Notes under the pieces: generated by a model | Database searches by the model: none | The model's input: only the letters and a program-made list of their open reading frames with translations | What the model was told of the DNA's origin: nothing | Part shown: in pieces, positions 15,295 to 38,657 of the stretch | Position numbering within the stretch: position 1 is the stretch's first letter | Layout of the letters: each line of letters starts with the position of its first letter | Position numbers and translations under genes: made by a program | Source of the DNA: Flavobacteriaceae bacterium | GTDB lineage: Bacteria > Bacteroidota > Bacteroidia > Flavobacteriales > Flavobacteriaceae | Reading direction: 5' to 3' | DNA: 38,729 nucleotides | NCBI GenBank assembly: GCA_029939235.1 | Contig: JAOZTG010000004.1 | Location: 13,223 to 51,951, forward strand

Positions 15295-18200
15295 TTATAA
15301 TGTTAAATAATTGATTTTGATAACGGTTTGATTATATAAATTCAGATTATCCAGATAAATAAGTAATATTCCAAAGGCATTTTCTAAACTTTGTATATAC
15401 TGGAAAAAGTTAATTTCTCCGTTTTTATAACTAAATTTTGCTGTATCAAAAATTTCTTCTGAAAGATTTTTTCCTTCATTATCATAATAACTTAGGGCTT
15501 CTTCATATTTTCTTAATTGTGACAACAATTGAGCTTGTTTAGAACTTAACTCTATTTTGTAATCTTCAGCTTGTTGTTGTACAATTTCCTGGGCTATTTT
15601 TGAAGCCTTTATTTTGGAGGCATTTCCACTAAAAAGCAATGGTATTTTTAATCCGATCTGGTATCCGGATAAATTATAGTTTAGATCTGAATTAGTTCCC
15701 TGAAAATAATTAAGGCTTATATCTGGTAACAACCGCTGTTTTTCAAAACTGTTCTTTGCCTGAAATAATGACTTTTTATTTTCGAAATAGGTCATTCCCA
15801 TATTTTCGTTCAGGTTTAGAATATTTAGATCTAGCTTTTTTATTTTTTCCGGTTTGATAGTAAATTCATCTTCACTTTGAACTATTTTCTGTACATAGAC
15901 CAATGCAGAATTCACATCTTCCTGTGACTGAATATATAAGGTTTGCAATTGCTTTTGTTTCGCCTGAGATGTAATTTTTTCTAAATAATTAGTTTCACCT
16001 GTTTCAAATCTTCGTTTAGCAGCATAAGCAAAGGTTTTATAAAAACTATCCATTTTTTTATAAACACTTTCTTTTTCAATTTCATATTGCATCTGATAGT
16101 ATGCAGATGTAATATCACGTTCTAATATTTTTCTTTTAATTTTATGTGAACTTGACTCTAAATGATAGGTAGCCTCGTTTAGTTTTTTGCCTGCAAAATA
16201 AAGAGTAGGAAACAAAAAATCCTGTTGTATACCAAATACCTTCAGAGGTATATCATTTACAGCCATATTGTTTTCATCATAATTATAATAGATCTCTGTT
16301 TTATCAAAGTCAAAAGCATTTCCAATTAGTGCATTCGCTTCCTCTACTTTTAAAGAAGAAGCTTTAAGACCGGCATTGTTTTCCATTGCTAAATTATAAA
16401 CTTCATCAAGATCTAATTGTTTTGTTTGAGCATTACTTTGCATGGTAACAGTTAGCAGAATTGCTAAAAACCCTATTATTTTAATATTTGCTTTTTTGTG
16501 ACTATTTTTTTCCTTCTTTTTATCAAAAATGGAGTATAAAACCGGTAATACTAACATGGTTAATAATGTTGCAGAAACCAGACCGCCAATAACCACTGTG
16601 GCCAACGGACGTTGTACTTCTGCACCCGCATTGGTTGAAATAGCCATTGGCAAAAAACCAAGAGCCGCTGCTGCTGCTGTTAATATCACAGGTCGGAGAC
16701 GTTCTTTTGCTCCTTTAATAACTCTTTCATTTATATCATCCATTCCTTCTCGTTTTAATTCTTTAAAATGTTCAACCAATACAATACCATTTAATACAGC
16801 AATACCAAACAGCGCAATAAAACCTACACCTGCCGAAATACTAAAAGGCATATCTCTTATCCATAATAAAACAACTCCGCCAACAGCTGAAAGCGGAATA
16901 GCAGAATAGATCATTAATGCTTCTTTGGCTGAACCAAATGCAAAATAAAGTAATATGAAAATGAGTACCAGTGCAATAGGAACAGCAACCTTTAATCGGG
17001 CTTTGGCATTTTGTAAATTTTCAAACTGTCCTCCGTAAGTAACACTGTATCCAACAGGAAGTTTAATATTTGTTTCTATCAAACTTTGAACATCATCAAC
17101 AACCGATTGCAGATCCCTGTTTCTAACATTGATTCCAATTACGATTCTTCTTTTGGTATCATCTCTTGATATCTTTGCCGGCCCTTTAGAATAAGAAATA
17201 GTAGCTAATTCATGCAATGGAATTTTAACTCCTGAAGGAGAATCAATATATAAATTTTCTAAATTCGATATACCAGATCTGTTCTTCTTATCTAACCGAA
17301 TAACCAGATCAAAACGTTTTTCGCCCTCATACACACTACCTACTACTGCTCCGGAGAAACCAGACGATATCATCATATTAATATCTTCGATATCCAATCC
17401 ATATCTGGCCACTTTCTTTCGATCATAAACCACACTCATTTGCGGCAATCCAGCTGTTTTCTCAACAATAATATCAGAAGCACCTTTTACATCACTGATC
17501 AATTTTTTAATTTCATTTGCTTTTTCACTTAAAACATTTAGATCTTCACCAAATATTTTAACAGCAATATCTGCTCTTACACCGGTTATCAATTCGTTAA
17601 AACGCATTTCAATGGGTTGGGTAAACTCAACTTCCATTCCTGGGATTATGGCTAATGCTTCTTTAAATTTATCTGCCAACTCATCTTTTGAACTTGCTGA
17701 AACCCATTCATTTTTAGGTTTTAATTTGATAATAACATCACTTTCTTCCATGGACATTGGGTCTGTTGGGATTTCTGCAGCTCCTATCCTACTCACTACC
17801 TGATCCACTTCCGGAAAATTATCCAATAAGATATTTTCAATTTTAGTAGTTGTTTCAATCGTTTTACTTAATGAAGTACCTGTTTTAAGAACAGGTTGAA
17901 TCACAAAATCACCTTCATCCAGTGTTGGAACAAATTCACCTCCCATGGTTGCAAAAAGATAAATGGAAAAGATCAATAAAACTGACGATAGGCCTAAGAC
18001 AATTTTTTTACTTTTTAATGCCCATCGTATCGTTGGTTCATAGGCATCACTTAAAAATTTCATCAACCTGACAGAAATATTTTTTGAAGAAACTTTTGTA
18101 GGTTTTAAAAATATGGATGACATGGCTGGTACGTATGTCAAACCAAAGATCATAGCTCCAACCAAAGCAAAACTAAAAGTTAAAGCCATAGGTTTAAACA

Positions 18201-19629
18201 TTTTTCCTTCTACACCCGTTAAAGTAAGAATTGGGATAAATACGATCAATATGATCAACTGACCAAATACAGCTGAATTCATCATTTTAGATGAACTTTG
18301 AAAAGTTATTTGATCAATTGCTTCCTGCTTTTCATCAGGATCGAGCTTTAAAAGTTCTTTCCTGTTCGAGGTAATCTGAAATGCAATATATTCTACAATG
18401 ATTACAGATCCATCAATGATAATTCCAAAATCAATTGCTCCTAAACTCATTAAATTGGCATCCACTCCAAACAGGTACATCAAAGACAAAGCAAATAGTA
18501 AGGTCAGGGGAATAACGGATGCAACAACAAATCCCGAACGTAGATTTCCTAAAATTAAAACCACAATAAAGATCACGATCAAACATCCTAAAATTAAATT
18601 TTCTGCAACCGTATATGTAGTTTTTGCAATCAATTCACTGCGTTCCAGAAAACCATTGATATAAACACCTTCAGGAAGAGTTTTAGAAATAATTGCAACA
18701 CGATCTTTAACGGCTTCAATTACTTTTTTAGAATTGCCATTCTTCAACATCATTACCTGTCCCAAAACTTTTTCACCCTCTCCGTTACCGGTTATGGCAC
18801 CAAATCTTGGAGCACTTCCAAATCCAACTTCAGCAACATCTTTGATATAAATTGAAAAACCATCAATTGTTTTAACTTTAATATTTTTTATATCATCTAT
18901 GGATTTTATCAAACCTTCCGCACGAATAAAATATGCTTTATTTGATTTCTCAATATACCCACCACCGGCAATGCTGTTATTCTTTTCCAAAGCATTGAAA
19001 ATATCAACTGTTGAAATATTCATAGCTTTTAATCTTTCTGTATTCGTAGCTACTTCATATTGTTTTAAGTAACCTCCCCAGGTGTTTACTTCAACCACAC
19101 CTGGTATTCCAGAAAGTTGACGTTTTACGATCCAATCCTGGATAGTTCTTAGATCTGTTACAGAATATTTGTCTTTATACCCCGGTTCGGTATCGAGAAT
19201 ATACTGGTAAATTTCTCCTAAACCTGTTGTAATTGGTCCCATTTCAGGAGCTCCAAAACCTTTTGGTATTTTTTCACTTGCTGATTTAATTTTTTCAGCG
19301 ATCAATTGCCTTGGAAGATATGTTCCCATATCATCTTTAAAAACGATAGTAACAACAGATAATCCGAATTTTGAAACAGATCTTATTTCAACAACTCCCG
19401 GTAAATTCGCCATTTCCAATTCAATGGGATAGGTAATAAACTGTTCAATATCCTGCGTTGATAAATTCTTTGAAGTAGTTATCACCTGCACTTGATTATT
19501 AGTAATATCTGGAACAGCACCAATTGGAATTTGAGTTAGTGAATAAATTCCAAAACCAATGATAAAAGCGGTAAATAAAAATACTATAAGTTTATTCTTT
19601 AAGCTGAGTTTAATGATTTTGGTCAACAT
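15295..19629 (-). CDS. CzcA-type heavy-metal RND permease fused to a TolC/CzcC-like channel domain
   Basis: 1444 residues. Residues 1 to about 1040 are an HME-RND proton/metal antiporter (LSLKNKLIVFLFTAFIIG start, QVQVITTSKNLSTQDIEQFI, twelve TM segments). The TM4 motif AIDFGIIIDGSVIIVE (Asp400, Asp406, Glu413) matches the divalent-cation (Co/Zn/Cd/Ni, CzcA/CnrA) class rather than the Cu/Ag class. Residues about 1068-1444 form an outer-membrane efflux protein with coiled-coil helices (LDEVYNLAMENNAGLKASS, LEKITSQAKQKQLQTLYIQS). The junction, about 1046-1068, contains a lysine-rich stretch, a hydrophobic segment (IIGFLAILLTVTM) and QSNAQ, just like a signal peptide. This fusion layout is known in Bacteroidota. 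It pumps metal from periplasm or cytosol out of the cell together with the downstream adaptor. Confidence 0.93.
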   Translation of the reverse strand: MLTKIIKLSLKNKLIVFLFTAFIIGFGIYSLTQIPIGAVPDITNNQVQVITTSKNLSTQDIEQFITYPIELEMANLPGVVEIRSVSKFGLSVVTIVFKDDMGTYLPRQLIAEKIKSASEKIPKGFGAPEMGPITTGLGEIYQYILDTEPGYKDKYSVTDLRTIQDWIVKRQLSGIPGVVEVNTWGGYLKQYEVATNTERLKAMNISTVDIFNALEKNNSIAGGGYIEKSNKAYFIRAEGLIKSIDDIKNIKVKTIDGFSIYIKDVAEVGFGSAPRFGAITGNGEGEKVLGQVMMLKNGNSKKVIEAVKDRVAIISKTLPEGVYINGFLERSELIAKTTYTVAENLILGCLIVIFIVVLILGNLRSGFVVASVIPLTLLFALSLMYLFGVDANLMSLGAIDFGIIIDGSVIIVEYIAFQITSNRKELLKLDPDEKQEAIDQITFQSSSKMMNSAVFGQLIILIVFIPILTLTGVEGKMFKPMALTFSFALVGAMIFGLTYVPAMSSIFLKPTKVSSKNISVRLMKFLSDAYEPTIRWALKSKKIVLGLSSVLLIFSIYLFATMGGEFVPTLDEGDFVIQPVLKTGTSLSKTIETTTKIENILLDNFPEVDQVVSRIGAAEIPTDPMSMEESDVIIKLKPKNEWVSASSKDELADKFKEALAIIPGMEVEFTQPIEMRFNELITGVRADIAVKIFGEDLNVLSEKANEIKKLISDVKGASDIIVEKTAGLPQMSVVYDRKKVARYGLDIEDINMMISSGFSGAVVGSVYEGEKRFDLVIRLDKKNRSGISNLENLYIDSPSGVKIPLHELATISYSKGPAKISRDDTKRRIVIGINVRNRDLQSVVDDVQSLIETNIKLPVGYSVTYGGQFENLQNAKARLKVAVPIALVLIFILLYFAFGSAKEALMIYSAIPLSAVGGVVLLWIRDMPFSISAGVGFIALFGIAVLNGIVLVEHFKELKREGMDDINERVIKGAKERLRPVILTAAAAALGFLPMAISTNAGAEVQRPLATVVIGGLVSATLLTMLVLPVLYSIFDKKKEKNSHKKANIKIIGFLAILLTVTMQSNAQTKQLDLDEVYNLAMENNAGLKASSLKVEEANALIGNAFDFDKTEIYYNYDENNMAVNDIPLKVFGIQQDFLFPTLYFAGKKLNEATYHLESSSHKIKRKILERDITSAYYQMQYEIEKESVYKKMDSFYKTFAYAAKRRFETGETNYLEKITSQAKQKQLQTLYIQSQEDVNSALVYVQKIVQSEDEFTIKPEKIKKLDLNILNLNENMGMTYFENKKSLFQAKNSFEKQRLLPDISLNYFQGTNSDLNYNLSGYQIGLKIPLLFSGNASKIKASKIAQEIVQQQAEDYKIELSSKQAQLLSQLRKYEEALSYYDNEGKNLSEEIFDTAKFSYKNGEINFFQYIQSLENAFGILLIYLDNLNLYNQTVIKINYLTL

Positions 19630-28560: not shown

Positions 28561-29937
28561 ATGGAGCTTCAAAGAAGAGATTTTTTAAAGAAAATTACTG
28601 TTGCCGGAGCAGGAATGGCACTTGCACCCAATTTAATTTCAGCAAATGAAACAAAAGAAGCAATTGGCTTCAAGAAAAAGAAAAATAATGGTAGAATCAA
28701 TATAGCATTTATTGGTGTTGGAGGAAGAGGAAGAGGCCATGTAAGTCTTGTATCAAAATATAAAAACATTGATATTACTGCAATTTGTGATGTGGATCCA
28801 AAAGCAATTAAAGCAACCCAAAAGATCTTAAGAGATCATTCAAGAAAGGAAGCTACTGTTTATACAGGTGATGACCATGCATATCTTAAAATGTTGGAAC
28901 GTGATGATATTGATGGTGTAATTATTGCTTCCCCCTGGTTATGGCATACACCAATGGCTGTAGCTGCAATGAAAGCTGGTATATATGCAGGTGTTGAAGT
29001 GAGTGCAGCAAACACTATTGAGGAATGCTGGGATCTGGTAAATACTTCGGAAGAAACTGGAGTCCCTTGTATGATATTAGAAAATGTTTGTTATGCACGT
29101 GAAGCAATGTCCGTATTAAAAATGGTTCGTGAAGGAGTTTTTGGAGAAATAGTTCATGCAACTTGCGGGTATAAACATGATCTGCGTGGTGTAAAATTTA
29201 ATCCAGGAGTGGAATTTGGAAAAGATGCCCGAGGAGAAGCCAGATGGCGAACCGAACATTCTTTAAAAAGAAATGGAGATATCTATCCAACGCATGGTAT
29301 TGGTCCGGTAGCAACCTGGTTTGATATCAATAGAGGAAACAGATTTGTTACACTAACTTCAGTTGCAACAAAATCAACTGGCTTACACAAATATATTGTT
29401 GATCATCCAAAAGGAGGAAAAGAGCATCCAAATGCAAAATTAAAATGGAAATTAGGTGATATTGTTACAACAACCATATCAACGGCAAATGGTGAAACGA
29501 TAATTCTGAGTCATGATACCAATTTACCCAGACCTTATTCATGGGGATTTGAATTGCATGGCAATAAAGGTGTTTGGGGTGGTCAGTATGAAGGAAAAAG
29601 AATTTATATAGAAGGTGAATCTGAACCTCATAAATGGAGTACAGGTGAATCTTATGATAAATATTTTAACAAATATGATCATAAATTATGGAAAGAAGAG
29701 GCTGCAAAAGCAGAAGGTGCCGGTCATGGAGGTATTGATTATTTTACGATCAAACAATTTGTTGATAGTGTACAAAATGAAGTACAACCACCAATTGATG
29801 TGTATGATGCTGCTGCATGGAGCGCAATCACTCCATTATCAGAGGCGTCAATAGCTAGTGGTGGATCTCCTCAGTTTTTCCCTGATTTTACCAGAGGAAA
29901 ATGGATGACTAATAAACCTGTTTTTGGACTGGAATAA
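28561..29937 (+). CDS. Gfo/Idh/MocA family, GH109-type (alpha-N-acetylgalactosaminidase-like), Tat-exported
   Basis: 458 residues with a twin-arginine signal (RRDFLKKITVAGAGMAL), so exported folded with its cofactor. A Rossmann NAD-binding motif follows (FIGVGGRGRGHV; ITAICDVDP). Then come a GVIIASPWLWHTPMA segment, AGVEVSAANTIEE, VCYAREAMSVLKMV, THGIGPVATWFDINRG, and the GH109-like C-terminal half: DIVTTTISTANGETIILSHD, LPRPYSWGFELHG, GHGGIDYFTIKQFVDSVQN, VYDAAAWSAITPLSE and FPDFTRGKW. GH109 enzymes cleave alpha-GalNAc by an NAD-dependent oxidation/elimination cycle, famously from blood group A antigen. Assignment to that specificity is inference; other Gfo/Idh/MocA enzymes with the same ending act on different sugars. 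Confidence 0.85.
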   Translation: MELQRRDFLKKITVAGAGMALAPNLISANETKEAIGFKKKKNNGRINIAFIGVGGRGRGHVSLVSKYKNIDITAICDVDPKAIKATQKILRDHSRKEATVYTGDDHAYLKMLERDDIDGVIIASPWLWHTPMAVAAMKAGIYAGVEVSAANTIEECWDLVNTSEETGVPCMILENVCYAREAMSVLKMVREGVFGEIVHATCGYKHDLRGVKFNPGVEFGKDARGEARWRTEHSLKRNGDIYPTHGIGPVATWFDINRGNRFVTLTSVATKSTGLHKYIVDHPKGGKEHPNAKLKWKLGDIVTTTISTANGETIILSHDTNLPRPYSWGFELHGNKGVWGGQYEGKRIYIEGESEPHKWSTGESYDKYFNKYDHKLWKEEAAKAEGAGHGGIDYFTIKQFVDSVQNEVQPPIDVYDAAAWSAITPLSEASIASGGSPQFFPDFTRGKWMTNKPVFGLE

Positions 29938-30131: not shown

Positions 30132-32747
30132 TTAATTATATACTGTTAGATTCACTTTATTATTGGTTTCTGAGTTCTCTCCAACAAATATCTCAAATGA
30201 ACCGGGTTCTACAAAAGGGTTTCCATCATTATCAAAAATGAATAGATCTTCCGAACTAATTTCAAAAACTACTTTTTTAGATGTTCCTTTTTTAAGGAAT
30301 ACTTTTTTAAATTTTCGCAATGATCTTATTGGGGTTGGAACACTTGCTTCCATATCATGCATATACAATTGCACAACTGTATTTCCATCATATTTTCCAT
30401 TATTACTAACTGTTACAGTTACTTTTGTTATTTGAGTTTTTGATATATTAGTTTTTTCCAGTTTTGGTAGAGAAAAATCAAATTTAGTATAACTCAACCC
30501 ATAACCAAACGGATATAGAACATCACCTTCAAAATAACGATAAGTACGACCTTTCATACGATAATCCTCAAAAGGAGGCAGATCATTTATAGATTTATAA
30601 TAAGTTATCGGTAATTTACCTGAAGGATTATAATCACCAAATAACACATCTGAAACAGCATCACCCCCTCCTTGTCCGGGATACCAAATATTTAAAATAG
30701 CAGGTAAGTTATTTTGTTCCCAATTAATAGCCATTGCACTACCTCCAGTCATCACAAAAACAACTGGTTTACCTGTATTTTTTAATTCTTGCAAAAGATC
30801 ATGCTGAACTTTAGGTAGTTTTAAATTAGTTCTGTCGCCTTTGTCAAACCCTTCAATTTTTACAGGCATCTCCTCCCCTTCCAATCGGGCTGATATTCCA
30901 CCAACATATATGATTACATCACTTTCTTTCACTATATTCATCAGATGATCCCTTCCTTTGATCTCTTCTTTATTCCATACCAATTGAACAGAAGCCATCC
31001 ATTCATTTGTACATAAATACTCTAGTCTAAATTTATACTTTTTGTTCTTTTCAAATTTAACCTTTGCAGATAAAGCAAAAGTTCCATTTCCACTTGACCC
31101 GTTTAAAACTTCTTTATCATCAATGAATAAACGATAAGATCCTCCACTTTCCAACACACCAAGTAATACATCTCCTGTAAAATCAGGTTTTAAAACTCCT
31201 GTATATTTGATGGAGAATTTGCCTGGGGTCAATAAATCGATAGGTGCAGCACCACCCCATTCAAAATCAATAAAAGATTGATTATTTTTAAGAATGGGTT
31301 TCCCTTTCAATTTTGAGTTATTATAATACTCTGTTACTATTTGTCCGTGAAAAGATGCCGGTTCTATCACATCAAAAATAGTATCGTTGTTGGTAAGATT
31401 TGTTCCTTTAAAATAATGAACTGTGGTTTTTTTTGAAACTTTTTCCTTAATCCCTTCCAAAATGGTTTTCCGATAGGTTGGTGTACCAAAATAATTTCCC
31501 AAAACAAAATGCCTATCATTGGCATTAGGGCCAATAACTGCAATAGACTTAATATCTTTTGAAATAGGTAATGTATTATCTTTATTTTTTAGTAGAACTA
31601 TAGATTCTCTGGCTGTTTGAAGAGCCAGTTTTTTTGAAGTATCAGATTCGATAAAGCTATCGTCATACTTTAAAAAAGGAGCCTGATCTTGCGGATTCAA
31701 CAAACCTAATTTAATACGTGCTATGATGAGCCTTTTCAACGATTTATCAATTTCTTCTTCACTGATTAATCCTTTTTTTACAGATTCTACCAAGTGCTTA
31801 TAACTGGAACCACAATTAAGATCACATCCAGCCTTTACAGCCAATGCAGATGCCTCTTCTGCAGTTGGAACAATCTTATGAAACTTATAAATATCATAAA
31901 CAGCACCACAGTCAGAAACCACATAACCTTTAAAACCCCATTTGTCTCTTAATATATCGTTTAATAATAAAGTGCTTGCTGTTGCTGATTCACCCAAATA
32001 TCTATTGTAGGCAGACATTACAGAAAATGCTTTTCCTTCGATAATGGTCGCTTTAAATGCAGGTAAATACGTTTCCCATAGATCTCTTTTGTCGGTATAG
32101 GCATCAAAACTATGCCTATTATGTTCCGGACCGCTATGAACTGCATAGTGTTTTGGAGTTGCAATTACCTTATAATAATCGGGGTCATCACCTTGTAATC
32201 CTTTTACAAAGGCAACTCCCATTTTAGAAGTTAGGTAAGGATCTTCCCCATAGGTTTCCTGACCACGTCCCCATCTTGGATCTCTAAAAATATTGATGTT
32301 TGGACTCCACATTGTCAATCCCTGATATCTGTTTCTTTGACCTAGTTTTATACTGTGATTAAATTTTGCTCTTGCTTCCGTACTTATCGCATCTGCCACT
32401 TTATGAATCAAATCTGGATTCCAGGTTGCTGCCATACCAATTGCCTGAGGATAGGAAGTTGCAGCACCGGCTCTTGCAACTCCGTGCAAACTTTCGTTCC
32501 ACCAGTTGTACTCGGGTATTCCTAAACGATCAATAGCAGGTGCTACATCCTGCATTTGAGCTACTTTTTCATCAAGTGAAAGTCTCTTTAACAGATCATC
32601 AGCCCTTAATTCTGTATCAAGTTTTACATCCTGAAAAGGATAAGAAACATCCTGAGAATGTATTGTAAATGAAGAGATTAAAATTAAAAAACTAAAAATC
32701 CATAAGTTTGAATTTTTCAAATAAATACTTTTTAGAATGTCCATCAT
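30132..32747 (-). CDS. GH3 beta-glycosidase with PA14 domain
   Basis: 871 residues with a signal peptide (LWIFSFLILISSFTIHSQ). The GH3 N-terminal barrel includes LSLDEKVAQMQDVAPAIDRL, NWWNESLHGVAR, FRDPRWGRGQETYGEDP, KHYAVHSGPEHNRH and the nucleophile Asp279 in GYVVSDCGAV. The GH3 C domain (ESIVLLKNKDNTLPI ... VIGPNAND) is interrupted by a PA14 module (about 470-590; IVTEYYNNSKLKGKPIL, YRLFIDDKEVL, YLCTNEWMASVQLVW) before resuming (VIYVGGISARLEGEEM). A C-terminal fibronectin-III-like domain follows. The PA14-bearing group is typically beta-glucosidase or beta-xylosidase and the PA14 shapes the substrate pocket. The ATG overlaps the TGA of the upstream chimeric relic (ATGA), so its original partner was the now-lost second GH92 gene. 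Confidence 0.92.
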   Translation of the reverse strand: MMDILKSIYLKNSNLWIFSFLILISSFTIHSQDVSYPFQDVKLDTELRADDLLKRLSLDEKVAQMQDVAPAIDRLGIPEYNWWNESLHGVARAGAATSYPQAIGMAATWNPDLIHKVADAISTEARAKFNHSIKLGQRNRYQGLTMWSPNINIFRDPRWGRGQETYGEDPYLTSKMGVAFVKGLQGDDPDYYKVIATPKHYAVHSGPEHNRHSFDAYTDKRDLWETYLPAFKATIIEGKAFSVMSAYNRYLGESATASTLLLNDILRDKWGFKGYVVSDCGAVYDIYKFHKIVPTAEEASALAVKAGCDLNCGSSYKHLVESVKKGLISEEEIDKSLKRLIIARIKLGLLNPQDQAPFLKYDDSFIESDTSKKLALQTARESIVLLKNKDNTLPISKDIKSIAVIGPNANDRHFVLGNYFGTPTYRKTILEGIKEKVSKKTTVHYFKGTNLTNNDTIFDVIEPASFHGQIVTEYYNNSKLKGKPILKNNQSFIDFEWGGAAPIDLLTPGKFSIKYTGVLKPDFTGDVLLGVLESGGSYRLFIDDKEVLNGSSGNGTFALSAKVKFEKNKKYKFRLEYLCTNEWMASVQLVWNKEEIKGRDHLMNIVKESDVIIYVGGISARLEGEEMPVKIEGFDKGDRTNLKLPKVQHDLLQELKNTGKPVVFVMTGGSAMAINWEQNNLPAILNIWYPGQGGGDAVSDVLFGDYNPSGKLPITYYKSINDLPPFEDYRMKGRTYRYFEGDVLYPFGYGLSYTKFDFSLPKLEKTNISKTQITKVTVTVSNNGKYDGNTVVQLYMHDMEASVPTPIRSLRKFKKVFLKKGTSKKVVFEISSEDLFIFDNDGNPFVEPGSFEIFVGENSETNNKVNLTVYN

Positions 32748-33031
32748 TTTAATATATTTAAATTTACCTTAGGGATATTATTCATTATAATTTTTAAACT
32801 ACTTCCATTTTTCATATCCTTATAGCTAAAAAATAAGCCATCCATTTTTTGATCATTCAGATGTGCCACTTTAAGTTTCCATAAGGATTCATCGTAAAAC
32901 CTCTCTCCACTTGTCAGAGCATTTTTATATTGTGGATCAGCAATCAATCCAATCTTTAAAATTGGTTTGAATTACGAGTATAAACCCAGAACGAGTATGA
33001 TTAAAATTGATGTAAATACTAAATTTTTCAT
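32744..33031 (-). pseudogene. Chimeric relic: metallophosphoesterase N-terminus joined to GH92 C-terminus
   Basis: From ATG at 33031 the frame reads a signal peptide (MKNLVFTSILIILVLGLYS), a TAA at 32974-32972, then FKPILKIGLIADPQYKNALT and SGERFYDESLWKLK. This is the start of a calcineurin-like metallophosphoesterase with its D-x-Q/H metal motif (IADPQY). At about 32870-32860 it switches without a frame break to AHLNDQKMDGLFFSYKD and MKNGSSLKIIMNNIPK. That stretch is about two-thirds identical over 35 residues to the last part of the intact GH92 protein in this window (AYLNDKKMDSLFFSHKD...). A deletion evidently fused the first gene to the end of a second GH92 gene. The product would be non-functional as an enzyme. 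Confidence 0.7.
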
Positions 33032-33111
33032 TGGATCTGCACTGTGTATTATACTGGTTTTTATCTGTAAATTAGCATCTTTTTTTTAAGTAACTAAACA
33101 AAATAATTTTT

Positions 33112-36087
33112 TTAATCCGTATTAATTTTAAAAACAACCTTATCAGAATACATTTTATTTAAAACTATATTTCGCTGAAAATTTCCCCAGCTCAGATCAA
33201 TATAATCCATTTTATTATTTGCAAATAGTTGAATGCTGTTTTCTCTTTTTTCAATTCGACAAGCAATATCTCTCTGACCTAAAACCGATAATATTTCTCG
33301 TCCTTTATTATAAAGATTATATGTCATAATATTTTCTTTTGTTGATCTGGAAATATTTGTAAGCTGATCCCCAAATGACTCATCCTTAGTTCCTTCATAA
33401 TAGAAACTTTTTGAATCATTTTCCCATTCTTTAGTTGGTTCTATCCGATATTTTTTTAAAATGTTTGAATACAAAGAAACATTCCCTTTTTGAGCTGACA
33501 GATGCTCTTCGGGGTAATAAGACCAGTAAGGATTTCTTAGCCATGAGAGTGAATCAATTATATTATCCAGTTCAAATCTAATTCCAATTTCACGAATGTC
33601 TGATTTAGGAATATTTTTTATCTGATATCGTATTGTAATCTCTCCTGTAGAAATTATTCTCATCTCAAAATCTACCTTTTTAACATCTTCATATTTACCT
33701 TTTGTTAAAATCACAACTTCATTGTTTTCTCTTTTAAAAGTAAATTTCATCAAGCTCCAATTCTCCCCATGATCATCAATTTCGTGATTAGAATACATTT
33801 TTGAATCTCCTTTGGTTCGTAAATTTAAATATGGACCTGAGAAATTTGTCCTTGTAGTTGAATTTTGAATTTCACGGATCAAACCGGTTCTTTTATTAAA
33901 AATAATTTTTGTATTGTTCTTGCAGTTAACTGTCAGTTGGTCTTTTTCATCTTTGACACTTATCTCCCCATAAGAATCATTTCCTTTTGGAATATTAAAA
34001 TCTACTTTTAAATGAAGAATATATTTATCAATCAATCTGTTTCTATTATCAAAAATTTCGACGGTAACCGGATCCTGTTGCTTCAAATTCTTTATAGGAA
34101 AATCCAGTACCCCTCTTGAATGCGGTTGAATATCTGTGGGTTTTAAGATCTCATTATAACCCTGATAAGAATATTTGATAGTTAGTTCATTGATATTGGT
34201 GTGATCAAATCGATTGTATACCGGAACCGACAAATTTCTTCCAGAATAATTTTCAAAAGTAGTTTGAAGAAATTTAACCGGAGAATATGCCTTTTTAGTA
34301 TTCCAAAATTCAGGTTTTTTTCTACGCCAGGTGTCTACAATACCCCATTCACCATAACCAATTGTGTTTCCGGTATATTCGGCCGGAATTACTTTTTTAT
34401 CAATTTTTCCCCACCATTCATTAAATCCGGGTAAAGATCTGGGCAGCATAAAAGTTTCATCTATCATACCCCAGATAGCTCCTCCTAAACCACCATCTGC
34501 TTCAAATACATTCGACCACATCCTATCGAGACTTTGCCCCCAAAAATCTCTGATATTTGGATCCTCTTTTACCGTAAAATTATTATAACAAGCTACATGG
34601 GCCCATTCGTCAAAAATAACCGGCATTTCTTTATAGCCAAAGTCTTTTGTTACCATATCGTGCTGACTTAAATTTCCTGTTATATCAGGATAATGCATAC
34701 TTAATATATCATAAGATTTCTCATTTTCAGGAACATTTCCCGGATAACTAAAGATTACAGGTCTTGTTTTGTCATTTTCTTTAACCCAATCATAGGATTT
34801 CTTGAAATTTTCTCCATAAGAATTTTCATTTCCTATAGACCATATAATAACGGAAGGGTGATTTTTATGATTATTCACCATTTCTTCAAGCTGTGATAAA
34901 TACTTTCCCCTATAATTTGGATCACCTTCAGATGCTCCCGGGGCATATTCTTCTGTTCGATGTGAGCCAACAAAACAAACTGCTGTTTCATCCTCCACAT
35001 ACAGACCGTATTCATCGCAAAGGCGCAAAAAGTTTTCTGTGGGTGGATAATGAGATGTACGAATGAAATTCATATTGGCCTCTTTGGCCAGTTTTACATC
35101 TTTCAATTCAAATTCAGGAGTAGATACCCTTCCGAGTAAGGGGTGAATATCATGCCTGCAGGCACCTCTGAGTTTTACTTCTTTTCCGTTTACCAACAAT
35201 TTATTACCTCTGACTTCGATTTCCCTAAACCCAACCTGATAGATCTTTTGAAATATTAATTGATCCTTTTCAAAATAATTTACAGTTAACTGATACAAAT
35301 CAGGATGCTCAGCATCCCATTTGTTGGGTGATTGCACCGTGTTTTCAATATTAAATGAATCATTCCCATTTAATTCAACACTACTTTTCTGAAGAGTGAT
35401 CTTTTTATTCTCTTTATTTCTTAATTCAATTTGAATTTTTGCGTTTTTCACCTTTCTCTTAAAATCACCCCTTATATGGAGTGCTGCATTTTTGTATTTA
35501 CTGTCAAAATCTGTAATGATACTTATATTATCCGGATTGTTTGTTGGTAAGGCAAGTAATTTAACATCTCTTAGAATTCCCCCGATCTGATGTTTAGCAT
35601 ATCCGCTTCCATAGGAAATATCATCTGCTTTATCAGTAACTTCCACGGTAAGCATTGCTCTTTCACCTGGTTTAACAAAAGGAGTGATATTACAATCCCA
35701 TTGTGTAAAACCTCCTGAGTGATCCCGCAAAAAGTTCCCATTGATCCAAACCCTTGCATAACTATAAACACCTTCGAACCGGAGTTTTATTTCTTTTCCA
35801 GCAAAATCCAAAGGGATCTCAATATGCTTCTTATAAACAAACGGTTGATCATGTTTTATTGGGAATCCTTGCATCATACACTCTCCCGGAACCTGAATAT
35901 CTTTCCATTCTTCATTAAGGATCTCCTCTTTCCAAAAATTACCGGAAGGATCCAAATTTATTTTCCAGATACCGTTTAAATTAATAATTGGATTTAACTC
36001 ACTAAAAGTACTATTTTCAATAGACTCATATTCAACCAAATTGATCCAGGGCACAATTAACCAAAGTGTGAAAAGTATTTTTATCAT
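33112..36087 (-). CDS. GH2 beta-galactosidase/beta-glycosidase
   Basis: 991 residues with a signal peptide (MIKILFTLWLIVPWINL). N-terminal jelly-roll (LNGIWKINLDPSGNFW, VPGECMMQGFP, KLRFEGVYSYARVWINGNFL) and immunoglobulin-like domains lead to the TIM barrel. The barrel contains LRGACRHDIHPLLGR, NFIRTSHYPPTENFL, the acid/base Glu421 in IIWSIGNEN and the nucleophile Glu494 in VIFDEWAH. A long C-terminal region (about 620-991, beta-rich) follows. The barrel motif CRHDIHP and the NENSYG loop fit beta-galactosidase-like members, but beta-glucuronidase or beta-mannosidase activity cannot be excluded. It lies between two relics, 81 bp upstream of the chimera, and a 16-bp palindrome sits 38 bp before its start. 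Confidence 0.9.
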   Translation of the reverse strand: MIKILFTLWLIVPWINLVEYESIENSTFSELNPIINLNGIWKINLDPSGNFWKEEILNEEWKDIQVPGECMMQGFPIKHDQPFVYKKHIEIPLDFAGKEIKLRFEGVYSYARVWINGNFLRDHSGGFTQWDCNITPFVKPGERAMLTVEVTDKADDISYGSGYAKHQIGGILRDVKLLALPTNNPDNISIITDFDSKYKNAALHIRGDFKRKVKNAKIQIELRNKENKKITLQKSSVELNGNDSFNIENTVQSPNKWDAEHPDLYQLTVNYFEKDQLIFQKIYQVGFREIEVRGNKLLVNGKEVKLRGACRHDIHPLLGRVSTPEFELKDVKLAKEANMNFIRTSHYPPTENFLRLCDEYGLYVEDETAVCFVGSHRTEEYAPGASEGDPNYRGKYLSQLEEMVNNHKNHPSVIIWSIGNENSYGENFKKSYDWVKENDKTRPVIFSYPGNVPENEKSYDILSMHYPDITGNLSQHDMVTKDFGYKEMPVIFDEWAHVACYNNFTVKEDPNIRDFWGQSLDRMWSNVFEADGGLGGAIWGMIDETFMLPRSLPGFNEWWGKIDKKVIPAEYTGNTIGYGEWGIVDTWRRKKPEFWNTKKAYSPVKFLQTTFENYSGRNLSVPVYNRFDHTNINELTIKYSYQGYNEILKPTDIQPHSRGVLDFPIKNLKQQDPVTVEIFDNRNRLIDKYILHLKVDFNIPKGNDSYGEISVKDEKDQLTVNCKNNTKIIFNKRTGLIREIQNSTTRTNFSGPYLNLRTKGDSKMYSNHEIDDHGENWSLMKFTFKRENNEVVILTKGKYEDVKKVDFEMRIISTGEITIRYQIKNIPKSDIREIGIRFELDNIIDSLSWLRNPYWSYYPEEHLSAQKGNVSLYSNILKKYRIEPTKEWENDSKSFYYEGTKDESFGDQLTNISRSTKENIMTYNLYNKGREILSVLGQRDIACRIEKRENSIQLFANNKMDYIDLSWGNFQRNIVLNKMYSDKVVFKINTD

Positions 36088-36124
36088 GATGTTGTGAATT
36101 GAAAGTTGTACAAAATTTTATTGA

Positions 36125-36140
36125 AAAAGACATGTCTTTT
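36125..36140. promoter_or_regulatory. Perfect 16-bp palindrome upstream of GH2
   Basis: AAAAGACATGTCTTTT reads the same on both strands and ends 38 bp before the GH2 ATG at 36087. Position and symmetry fit an operator; no regulator gene is in the window. Confidence 0.35.
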
Positions 36141-36221
36141 CGTCTTAAACCGATTAATATAAAGGGATTTAAAACTACCCTCTTCAATTGTTTGTTCCAA
36201 TACATTATTTGCCGATAATTT

Positions 36222-36360
36222 TTACTTGTATCTCAGCAGATATTTTTTTCCTAAAAAGAATCTTATTTTTTCATAAGTAAGCATACCATCAGTCCAACTC
36301 AACTCAATTTCAAATCTACCCCCTTGTGAGAAGACCTTTTATCTCTCTTAAACTATTCAT
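36222..36360 (-). pseudogene. C-terminal relic of a GH95-like gene (alpha-L-fucosidase/galactosidase family)
   Basis: Minus-strand codons read EIKGLLTRG, then after a one-base shift at the G5 run (36319-36323) RFEIELSWTDGMLTYEKI, then LGKKYLLRYK and TAA at 36224-36222. This matches the characteristic end of GH95 enzymes as I know it (L-x-A-RGGF-E-x-x-x-W-K-DG-L ... LGGxCxxRY). Nothing upstream of 36360 continues the protein, since the GH92 stop is at 36384, so over 95% of the gene is gone. It shows that a fucosidase-like gene once sat between GH92 and GH2. Confidence 0.55.
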
Positions 36361-36383
36361 CTAAACAACTCTCTGATAAAGAA

Positions 36384-38657
36384 CTAATTAGTTTTTGGAG
36401 TTTTCCCCATTACAATTTTAAGAGTACTTCCATTTTTGATATCCTTATGGCTGAAAAATAAAGAATCCATCTTTTTATCATTCAAATAGGCTTCTTGTAT
36501 ATATTTGTTCTCCTTGCTATTATTTTCAGTAATAATCGTAAATGTTTTACCGTTTTCCAATGGAATTTCAACTTTATCAAAAATAGGTCTTCCTATAGTA
36601 TAGGTTGGATTTCCCGGAGCTACCTGATAAAAACCCATGGCACTTAAAATATACCAGGCCGACATTTGGCCACAATCCTCATTACCAATAATCCCATCTG
36701 GTTTGGATGAGTAAAACTCTTTTAAGATCTGATCCACCAATTTTTGCGTTTTCCATGGTTGATCTGCATAATTGTACAAATAAGCAATGTGATGACTTGG
36801 TTCATTTCCATGCGCATATTGTCCAATCAAACCTGTAATATCAGCACTTGCAGTTTCACCAACAATTTCAGAAGATGTTGAAAATAAAGTATCTAATTTT
36901 GTGGTGAAAGCTTTTTCTCCACCATATAAATTGATCAATCCTTTCACATCATGTGGCACAAACCAGGTCCATTGCCATGCATTTCCTTCTATATATTGTG
37001 ATTTTTCATGACTGGAATGTTTAGGGTTAAAAGGCTTTACCCAGCTTCCATTTTCATTTTTTCCTCTCATAAATCCGGTTACCTTATCAAAATAGAGTTC
37101 ATAATTATTTGCTCTTTTTTCAAACACTTTTTCAACAGAATCATTCTTATTTAACTTTGCGATCTCTGCTATACACCAATCATAATAAGCCATTTCTAAA
37201 CCAAAAGAAACCGATTTGATAATTTTATCAGCAGGAATATGTTTTCCTTCATTTACATATTTATTATATAAAGGCATTAGTGCTTTTTTTCTTTCATTCT
37301 TTGTGTCAGCTACCAGTTCTGGTTTATAGGATGCACTGTTTATGGATGCTTCTAAAGCAAGTTTTTGATCAATTCCAGGAATACCTTTGCTCAATGCATC
37401 AGCAATATTTGCAACTGCTGGATAACCAACCATCGTGGCGGTATAATTAGAAGCCAGCGGCCACATCGGGAGAATGCCTCCTTCTTTATATTTTAGCAAC
37501 AAATTATTCACCCAACCTGCTGATTTTTTTTCATCAATAATGGTCATCAAAGGATGAAGCGCTCTGAATGTATCCCATAAAGAATACACGGTGTAATTTG
37601 TTTCCCTGTCTCTAGCTTTACGGATTAATTTATCCATTCCTCTATATCTTCCATCCACATCCTGATAAATCATTGGTGCGATCATACTATGATACAAAGC
37701 CGTATAAAAAATTACAAGATCATCTTTATTTTGTGTCGTTATTTTAATTTTTTGTAGTTCTTTAGCCCATGCTTCTTCATTTTCTACTCTTACTTTATTG
37801 AATTCCCAGTGATCCAGTTCGACTTTCATGTTCTTTTGTGCTCCATCTGTATCAATAGGTGAAATACCTACTTTTATCAATAAGGGATCATTATTTTCTA
37901 AACTCTTAAAAGTCAATTTAGCATAGACATTTTTCCCTTTATATATATTTGAATTACTTGCTTTCTTTTTATCAACCATTACAGAATCAACCTTGAATGG
38001 GCTGGAAAACTCCGCATAGAAATAAACTTTGTGATTATTTGCCCAACCTTTCGATTGTTTTAAACCTCTGATAGTTTTATTATCAATAATTTCCAGTTCG
38101 TTGTAAACATTGCTATGCCCCCAGGTACGTTGTAAAATATGGCCAATATCAATCAGTAATTTTTTTTGGGAGTCTGTTCCATACTGGTATTTATGCATTC
38201 CTACTCTGTTAGTGGCAGTCAATTCAGCTTTCACGTCGTAATTATTGAATTTAACAGAGTAAAAACCAACTTTTGCCTGTTCATCATTTTTATCAAAAGT
38301 TGCAATAGGTTTACCCGAACTTTTTTCAGTATAAGGCAGTAATAAAATGTCGCCCAGATCACCTATTCCGGTACCACTTAAATGTGTGTGAGAAAACCCA
38401 TAGATAGTATCATCATCATAATGATATCCGCTCGATGCATCCCATCCGTTTAGTTTAGTGTCAGGACTCAATTGTAACATACCATACGGCATTACCGGTC
38501 CGGGGAAAGTATGACCATGAAAACCAGTTCCAATAAATGGATCCACATATTGTAAAATATCTGTATTTTGTTTTTTAGAAACATTTTCTTTTTGAGAACA
38601 ACTAGTCAAAAACAACAGACTAAGCAGTATTACTAAGGTGTAAGATATATTTTTCAA
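36384..38657 (-). CDS. GH92 alpha-mannosidase (lipoprotein)
   Basis: 757 residues. It starts with a lipoprotein signal (LVILLSLLFLTSC, Cys20), so it is membrane-anchored, probably outer membrane. Family features are VDPFIGTGFHGHTFPGPVMP, YGMLQLSPDT, SGYHYDDDTIYGFSHTHLSG, TVYSLWDTFRALHPL, SHHIAYLYNY and the GNEDCGQMSAWYILSAMGFY motif with the general acid Glu660. GH92 enzymes are calcium-dependent exo-alpha-mannosidases acting on alpha-1,2/1,3/1,4/1,6 mannose of N-glycans and yeast mannan; the exact linkage cannot be read here. The start codon is TTG at 38657, chosen because it gives an ordinary lipoprotein signal and no in-frame ATG lies upstream. The last 35 residues are paralogous to the tail of the chimeric relic. 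Confidence 0.92.
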   Translation of the reverse strand: MKNISYTLVILLSLLFLTSCSQKENVSKKQNTDILQYVDPFIGTGFHGHTFPGPVMPYGMLQLSPDTKLNGWDASSGYHYDDDTIYGFSHTHLSGTGIGDLGDILLLPYTEKSSGKPIATFDKNDEQAKVGFYSVKFNNYDVKAELTATNRVGMHKYQYGTDSQKKLLIDIGHILQRTWGHSNVYNELEIIDNKTIRGLKQSKGWANNHKVYFYAEFSSPFKVDSVMVDKKKASNSNIYKGKNVYAKLTFKSLENNDPLLIKVGISPIDTDGAQKNMKVELDHWEFNKVRVENEEAWAKELQKIKITTQNKDDLVIFYTALYHSMIAPMIYQDVDGRYRGMDKLIRKARDRETNYTVYSLWDTFRALHPLMTIIDEKKSAGWVNNLLLKYKEGGILPMWPLASNYTATMVGYPAVANIADALSKGIPGIDQKLALEASINSASYKPELVADTKNERKKALMPLYNKYVNEGKHIPADKIIKSVSFGLEMAYYDWCIAEIAKLNKNDSVEKVFEKRANNYELYFDKVTGFMRGKNENGSWVKPFNPKHSSHEKSQYIEGNAWQWTWFVPHDVKGLINLYGGEKAFTTKLDTLFSTSSEIVGETASADITGLIGQYAHGNEPSHHIAYLYNYADQPWKTQKLVDQILKEFYSSKPDGIIGNEDCGQMSAWYILSAMGFYQVAPGNPTYTIGRPIFDKVEIPLENGKTFTIITENNSKENKYIQEAYLNDKKMDSLFFSHKDIKNGSTLKIVMGKTPKTN

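Follow-up and report, generated by a model that had tools for sequence, protein, structure and literature searches.

The window analysed here is the whole stretch of 38,729 nucleotides taken from a contig of a Flavobacteriaceae bacterium, whose assembly is a fragmented draft of 303 contigs. On its minus strand lie, in the order in which they are read, an intact GH92 gene (36384-38657; 757 aa, TTG start), a putative decayed remnant of a GH95 C-terminus (36126-36320), an intact GH2 gene (33112-36087; 991 aa), the N-terminal stub of a secreted metallophosphoesterase, or MPE (32864-33031), a further copy of the 3' end of GH92 (32744-32863) and a GH3 gene (30132-32747). A GH109-type gene on the plus strand (28561-29937) is convergent with GH3 and serves as a synteny marker. 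Compared with related genomes, the extra DNA in the window runs from 36383 to 32864, about 3.5 kb, to which the second GH92 end is added. GH2, open over 991 codons, is the only long frame within this insert; besides GH2 and a chimera frame of 67 aa, there are four insert frames of at least 60 aa (66-86 aa), all of which overlie GH2, and the family searches covered GH2, the MPE stub and the GH95 remnant. Elsewhere in the window (15295-19629), a frame of 1444 aa has a translation that presumably represents an RND metal-efflux pump fused to a part resembling an outer-membrane channel.

The initial annotation described 33031-32744 as a phosphoesterase start running into a GH92 tail with no frame break. 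Two gene pieces, the MPE-like start of one protein and the GH92 end of another, do meet there in one frame, at about 32866-32863, but the frame is interrupted: read from 33031 on the minus strand it gives MKNLVFTSILIILVLGLYS and then a TAA at 32974-32972 (codon 20), ahead of the phosphoesterase motif. The complete translation of 33031-32744 consists of a signal peptide, the TAA, an MPE-like stretch (FKPILKIGLIADPQY...SLWKLK) and the GH92 tail (HLNDQKMDGLFFS...), which ends at 32744. Because of the TAA, no single open frame leads from the MPE start to the GH92 stop, and the listed open frame of the chimera is just 32744-32947, with a TTG start. An Ala stands in all three MPE relatives at the position of the stub's last MPE-like residue, and the window GH92 likewise has Ala there, which places the joint at the Ala codon 32866-32864; this codon fits both parents, and the next one, from 32863, fits GH92. 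The joint falls where it had been expected, near 32870-32860, and a reported likeness between tail and GH92 of 24 residues in 35 was recovered by eye (23 of 34 identical, or 24 of 35 when the shared Ala is counted). The overlap of the GH3 ATG (32747) with the tail's stop as ATGA is likewise present, and arises because the GH92 stop was lost in the spare tail, which no longer has a stop where the intact GH92 genes have theirs and continues into the GH3 start.

The MPE relatives used for comparison (G979, G1081 and G274) are full-length genes from other genomes of the same class, and their proteins are Metallophos by Pfam, above the cut-off. In a direct comparison with these three proteins, the stub was 66% identical to that of G979, a Metallophos protein of 303 aa, over 35 aa (E 2.7e-13), 50% identical to that of G1081 over 50 and 43% identical to that of G274 over 60; a genome search gave 69% over 32 aa (E 2.5e-10). 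Unlike the three full-length relatives, the stub has no match in Pfam, PF00149 included, and a PDB search with it returned nothing. Of what we take to be the metal-site motifs of these enzymes, the first motif region alone remains. Searches for intact Metallophos genes in the genome to which the window belongs gave 16 matches.

The tail matched the protein of the window GH92 at 63% over residues 720-757 (E 2.5e-9) in a genome search with that protein; on its own it has no Pfam match (PF07971), and its homology is by comparison with GH92 genes only. Over the first 28 codons (84 bases) the tail DNA is 80% identical to the window GH92, 71% to the GH92 of G006 and 69% to that of G021, two genomes of the same genus, and over the same bases the window GH92 is 75% identical to G006 and 73% to G021. 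Three sites group the tail with the window GH92 alone, two with that of another genus genome, G009, alone, and one each with G006 alone and G021 alone. As the tail is nearly as far from the window GH92 as the window GH92 is from G006, and only three sites group the two, the duplication would be old, or the copies would come from different lineages. Along the intact gene, the identity of the window GH92 to G021 and G006 is 0.75-0.88 per 50 codons and 0.69 in the short last one. A hybrid GH92 derived in part from a donor, that is, a left homologous arm, was considered and rejected, since the sliding identity reveals no donor block. A remnant of the GH3 start left of the insert, by which the duplication might have been sized, was rejected too: in four local alignments, 322 to 423 of 500 shuffles scored equally well or better. 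The GH92 TTG start is at the same place in three species (window 38657; G021, 11549 of L011; G006, 5399 of L012), with 757 aa in each.

A search for GH92 at a threshold of 70% identity covered 22 genomes of the genus, own genome included, mostly drafts and many of them 61-90% complete. Four other genomes carry such a gene (G021 87%, G006 86%, G003 75% and G009 71%), and in each the place is occupied by a single such gene. In G021, G006 and G009, GH92 is followed directly by GH3, with no GH2 or MPE in between; the two genes are separated by 22 bases in G021 and overlap by 10 bases in G009 if the first Met of GH3 is used, and in G006 the listed GH3 frame begins 151 bases on. In G003, GH92 is present with no GH3 beside it. 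The order phosphoesterase-GH92-GH3, which had been predicted for relatives, was thus absent, with both full genes, from the four genus genomes with a GH92 of at least 70%: three have GH92-GH3 alone, and in the fourth, G003, GH92 stands without a neighbouring GH3. GH92 follows, in G021 and G006, a run of genes that from their translations are presumably of the leu type (leuB alone was searched), and GH3 faces a convergent GH109-type gene, just as it does in the window. These two genomes, with leuB ahead of GH92, share the upstream sequence of the window GH92. The only leuB match in the window's own genome is on contig C186, which ends 288 bases past leuB; by eye, its last 9 bases equal those with which the reverse strand of the window begins and the sequence order agrees with the G006 intergenic stretch, and a scripted search for an end overlap of at least 11 bases between C186 and the window found none. 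Near this assembly break (L041 about 2600-2770, C186 end), the gap between leuB and GH92 seemingly has, by eye, extra sequence with hairpin-like repeats relative to G021 and G006.

From the GH92-GH3 order of the relatives and the common upstream flank, the intact GH92 and GH3 are most likely both in their ancestral places, with 36383 to 32864 and the second GH92 end being extra. The locus thus resembles the same-genus GH92-GH3-GH109 locus (L011 of G021 and L012 of G006) in genes, order and orientation outside the insert; that locus lacks the insert and has a single GH92 end. A real small gene at the chimera is rejected, given the stop in the frame and the three GH92-GH3 relatives that lack the insert.

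The other edge of the insert lies between the GH92 stop and the GH2 start, and here the evidence for a decayed GH95 C-terminus is good but weaker than that for the MPE stub. The candidate remnant (36126-36320) matched residues 743-810 of the 811-residue GH95 of L027, a sequence titled as a Bacteroidetes MAG, at 44.3 bits with one internal stop, against a best of 22.3 among 500 letter shuffles; a possible preceding piece of nine residues lies in another frame, to about 36345, and is weak (E 2.0). With the L027 GH95 as query, the remnant scored highest (E 3.5e-8) of all places in a set of 63 sequences (407 kb) that left out L027 and six other own-genome loci, and the next place scored 27.3 bits. 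These BLAST scores were obtained without composition adjustment, and under the default adjustment the window gave no match to the GH95 query at E <= 1e-3. Among six L027 proteins tested on the remnant, GH95 alone matched well (next, 18.5 bits), and GH95_C was the sole Pfam family, at E 0.0087 and 17 bits, below the curated cut-off of 27.6 bits. A 34-aa piece of the remnant, searched in 299 family genomes at E <= 0.001, found the window itself only. In L027, GH95 is directly upstream of GH2; in L062 (G753), in L065 (G875) and in the 997 bases before GH2 of G420, no GH95 match was found at E <= 1e-3, so that GH95 was seen before GH2 in one of four GH2 relatives examined. Truncated genes thus appear at both ends of the insert, with GH95 the weaker of the two.

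The closest GH2 relative found is that of L027 (65%), which is the one confirmed by a scan of genome contigs. The best match in the other 21 genus genomes was 38% (G003). In samples drawn from the family and the class, GH2 was found in 5 of 397 family genomes at E <= 1e-120, own included (best other, G420 at 53%), and in 2 of 375 class genomes at E <= 1e-180, own included, the other being G875 at 43%. The MPE stub at E <= 0.01 had matches in 2 of 395 order genomes and 3 of 395 class genomes, own included each time, and in seven chosen genomes at E <= 1 it matched weakly in two. The L027 genome had no MPE match at E <= 1. A donor with GH95-GH2-MPE in a row was not found: MPE was not seen beside GH2 in L027, G420 and G753, nor GH2 beside MPE in G979, G1081 and G274. 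GH2 (GC 0.332, GC3 0.264) hardly differs in composition from GH92 (0.338 and 0.26), which gives no sign of foreign origin; given this unremarkable composition, we infer the foreign origin of the insert from the patchy occurrence of GH2 and from its truncated neighbours.

We consider it probable that the chimera is the edge of an insertion scar, at which a foreign fragment, GH95'-GH2-'MPE, came to lie between GH92 and GH3 and the end of GH92 was duplicated. The reading follows from ragged gene ends placed around an intact gene, between genes that are neighbours in relatives; because the other edge also seems truncated, in GH95, the MPE stub resembles the ragged edge of inserted DNA. In the ancestor, GH92 would have been followed directly by GH3, as in the three relatives. 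DNA from another member of the Bacteroidota, cut inside a GH95 gene and inside an MPE gene and with a whole GH2 between them, would then have been inserted past the GH92 stop codon, by illegitimate recombination or template switching involving little microhomology. Its MPE end would have become attached to an additional copy of the final 35 or so GH92 codons, leaving GH92 whole and GH3 preceded by a short GH92 tail, after which the GH95 stub, the MPE stub and the spare tail would have decayed and GH2 would have stayed open.

We infer both that the insertion took place in one event and how it was joined. The GH92 end may have been copied by a template switch, by a single cross-over of a circularised piece or by an older tandem duplication; simple end joining would not usually duplicate a flank of about 100 bases. 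A tentative and rather doubtful proposal is that GH2, a gene for polysaccharide use, was captured in one step and with no mobile element involved, through a template switch that left GH92 and then returned to that same gene. If it were true, the resident operon would have gained a gene with no resident gene lost, and both switch points would be recorded in the pair of stubs and the leftover GH92 end.

The initial annotation had taken the chimera for the record of a deletion in which most of two genes were lost. That two gene pieces are joined stands, but the loss is not the best reading, given the GH92-GH3 order of the relatives and the apparent truncation of the other edge as well. A fuller version of it would begin with a tandem duplication of GH92, with GH95-GH2-MPE between the copies, followed by deletions that left only small parts of GH95, MPE and the second GH92. 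The tail is indeed paralogous to the neighbouring GH92 and placed where a second GH92 would end, and a difference of 20% between the copies over 84 bases could reflect an old duplication; however, such a history requires a duplication, an insertion and at least two deletions, where the insertion model requires a single event in which the end of GH92 is copied as well, and the single GH92 in each of the four other genus genomes speaks against it. We regard it as unlikely.

An assembly artefact has to be kept in mind in so fragmented an assembly, but the tail differs by about 20% from the GH92 on the same contig, the stubs carry stops, and no other own-genome match at E <= 1e-3 spans the junction, all of which makes this very improbable. 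A gene 3' end duplicated around foreign DNA is also the layout left by integrative elements, which could have integrated site-specifically at the GH92 3' end, restored the gene end, left the duplicate and later lost the integrase. Such an origin is extremely improbable here, as the insert ends resemble broken enzyme genes and not element modules, and the four small frames listed beside GH2 and the 67-aa chimera frame overlie GH2.

An insertion scar is a known kind of event and a fairly ordinary, if instructive, genome fossil. In outline, PMC522871 treats prokaryotic pseudogenes as decaying genes thought to be left by failed horizontal transfer; the present stubs are like these, but here two of them enclose an intact cargo gene, and the end of a host gene is duplicated. 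Homology-facilitated illegitimate recombination, as sketched in PMC3240628, brings linear DNA into a chromosome with one illegitimate joint. The entry of linear DNA and the illegitimate joint would be shared with our locus; here, however, no homologous arm was identified, GH92 having no donor block, and the resident flank is duplicated. With both edges still readable, the insertion scar would represent a ragged insertion that added a glycan-degradation gene to a resident GH92-GH3 pair. It would also change the count of resident genes lost, since none is needed, and a chimera of two gene ends that looks in frame can mark the edge of an insertion and not necessarily a deletion.

GH92, GH2 and GH3 are on one strand, and GH2 and GH3 may be read from GH92, with read-through from GH92 to GH3. 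The suggestion that GH3 uses the phosphoesterase promoter found no support. The Bacteroidota promoter consensus is TTTG-N17-21-TANNTTTG; this pattern has 5 matches in the window, against a chance mean of 3.26, and none at 32750-33111. A sigma-70-like scan found 18 matches where 20.2 were expected, a total at chance, and the nearest on the minus strand (33181-33152 and 33345-33316) are both in the GH2 3' end. Neither promoter scan was clearly above chance. A terminator scan of 32500-36600 gave 6 sites where 1.7 were expected; a single site, at 35319 within GH2, is on the minus strand.

The GH3 gene itself has a mosaic appearance when L012 7824-10310 (G006), window 30132-32747 and L011 13845-16445 (G021) are compared by codons of the alignment. 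Over codons 250-350 the identity between window and G006 is 97% and 92%, with G021 at 77-82% to either, and over codons 750-866 G006 and G021 are 93-95% identical with the window at 65-79%. This mosaic suggests between-species recombination at the locus. The listed GH3 frame of G006 has a TTG start and lacks the signal peptide of the window and G021 genes (L012 7673-7823 region); given a long T run upstream, a frame shift or an assembly error at the G006 GH3 start is likely.
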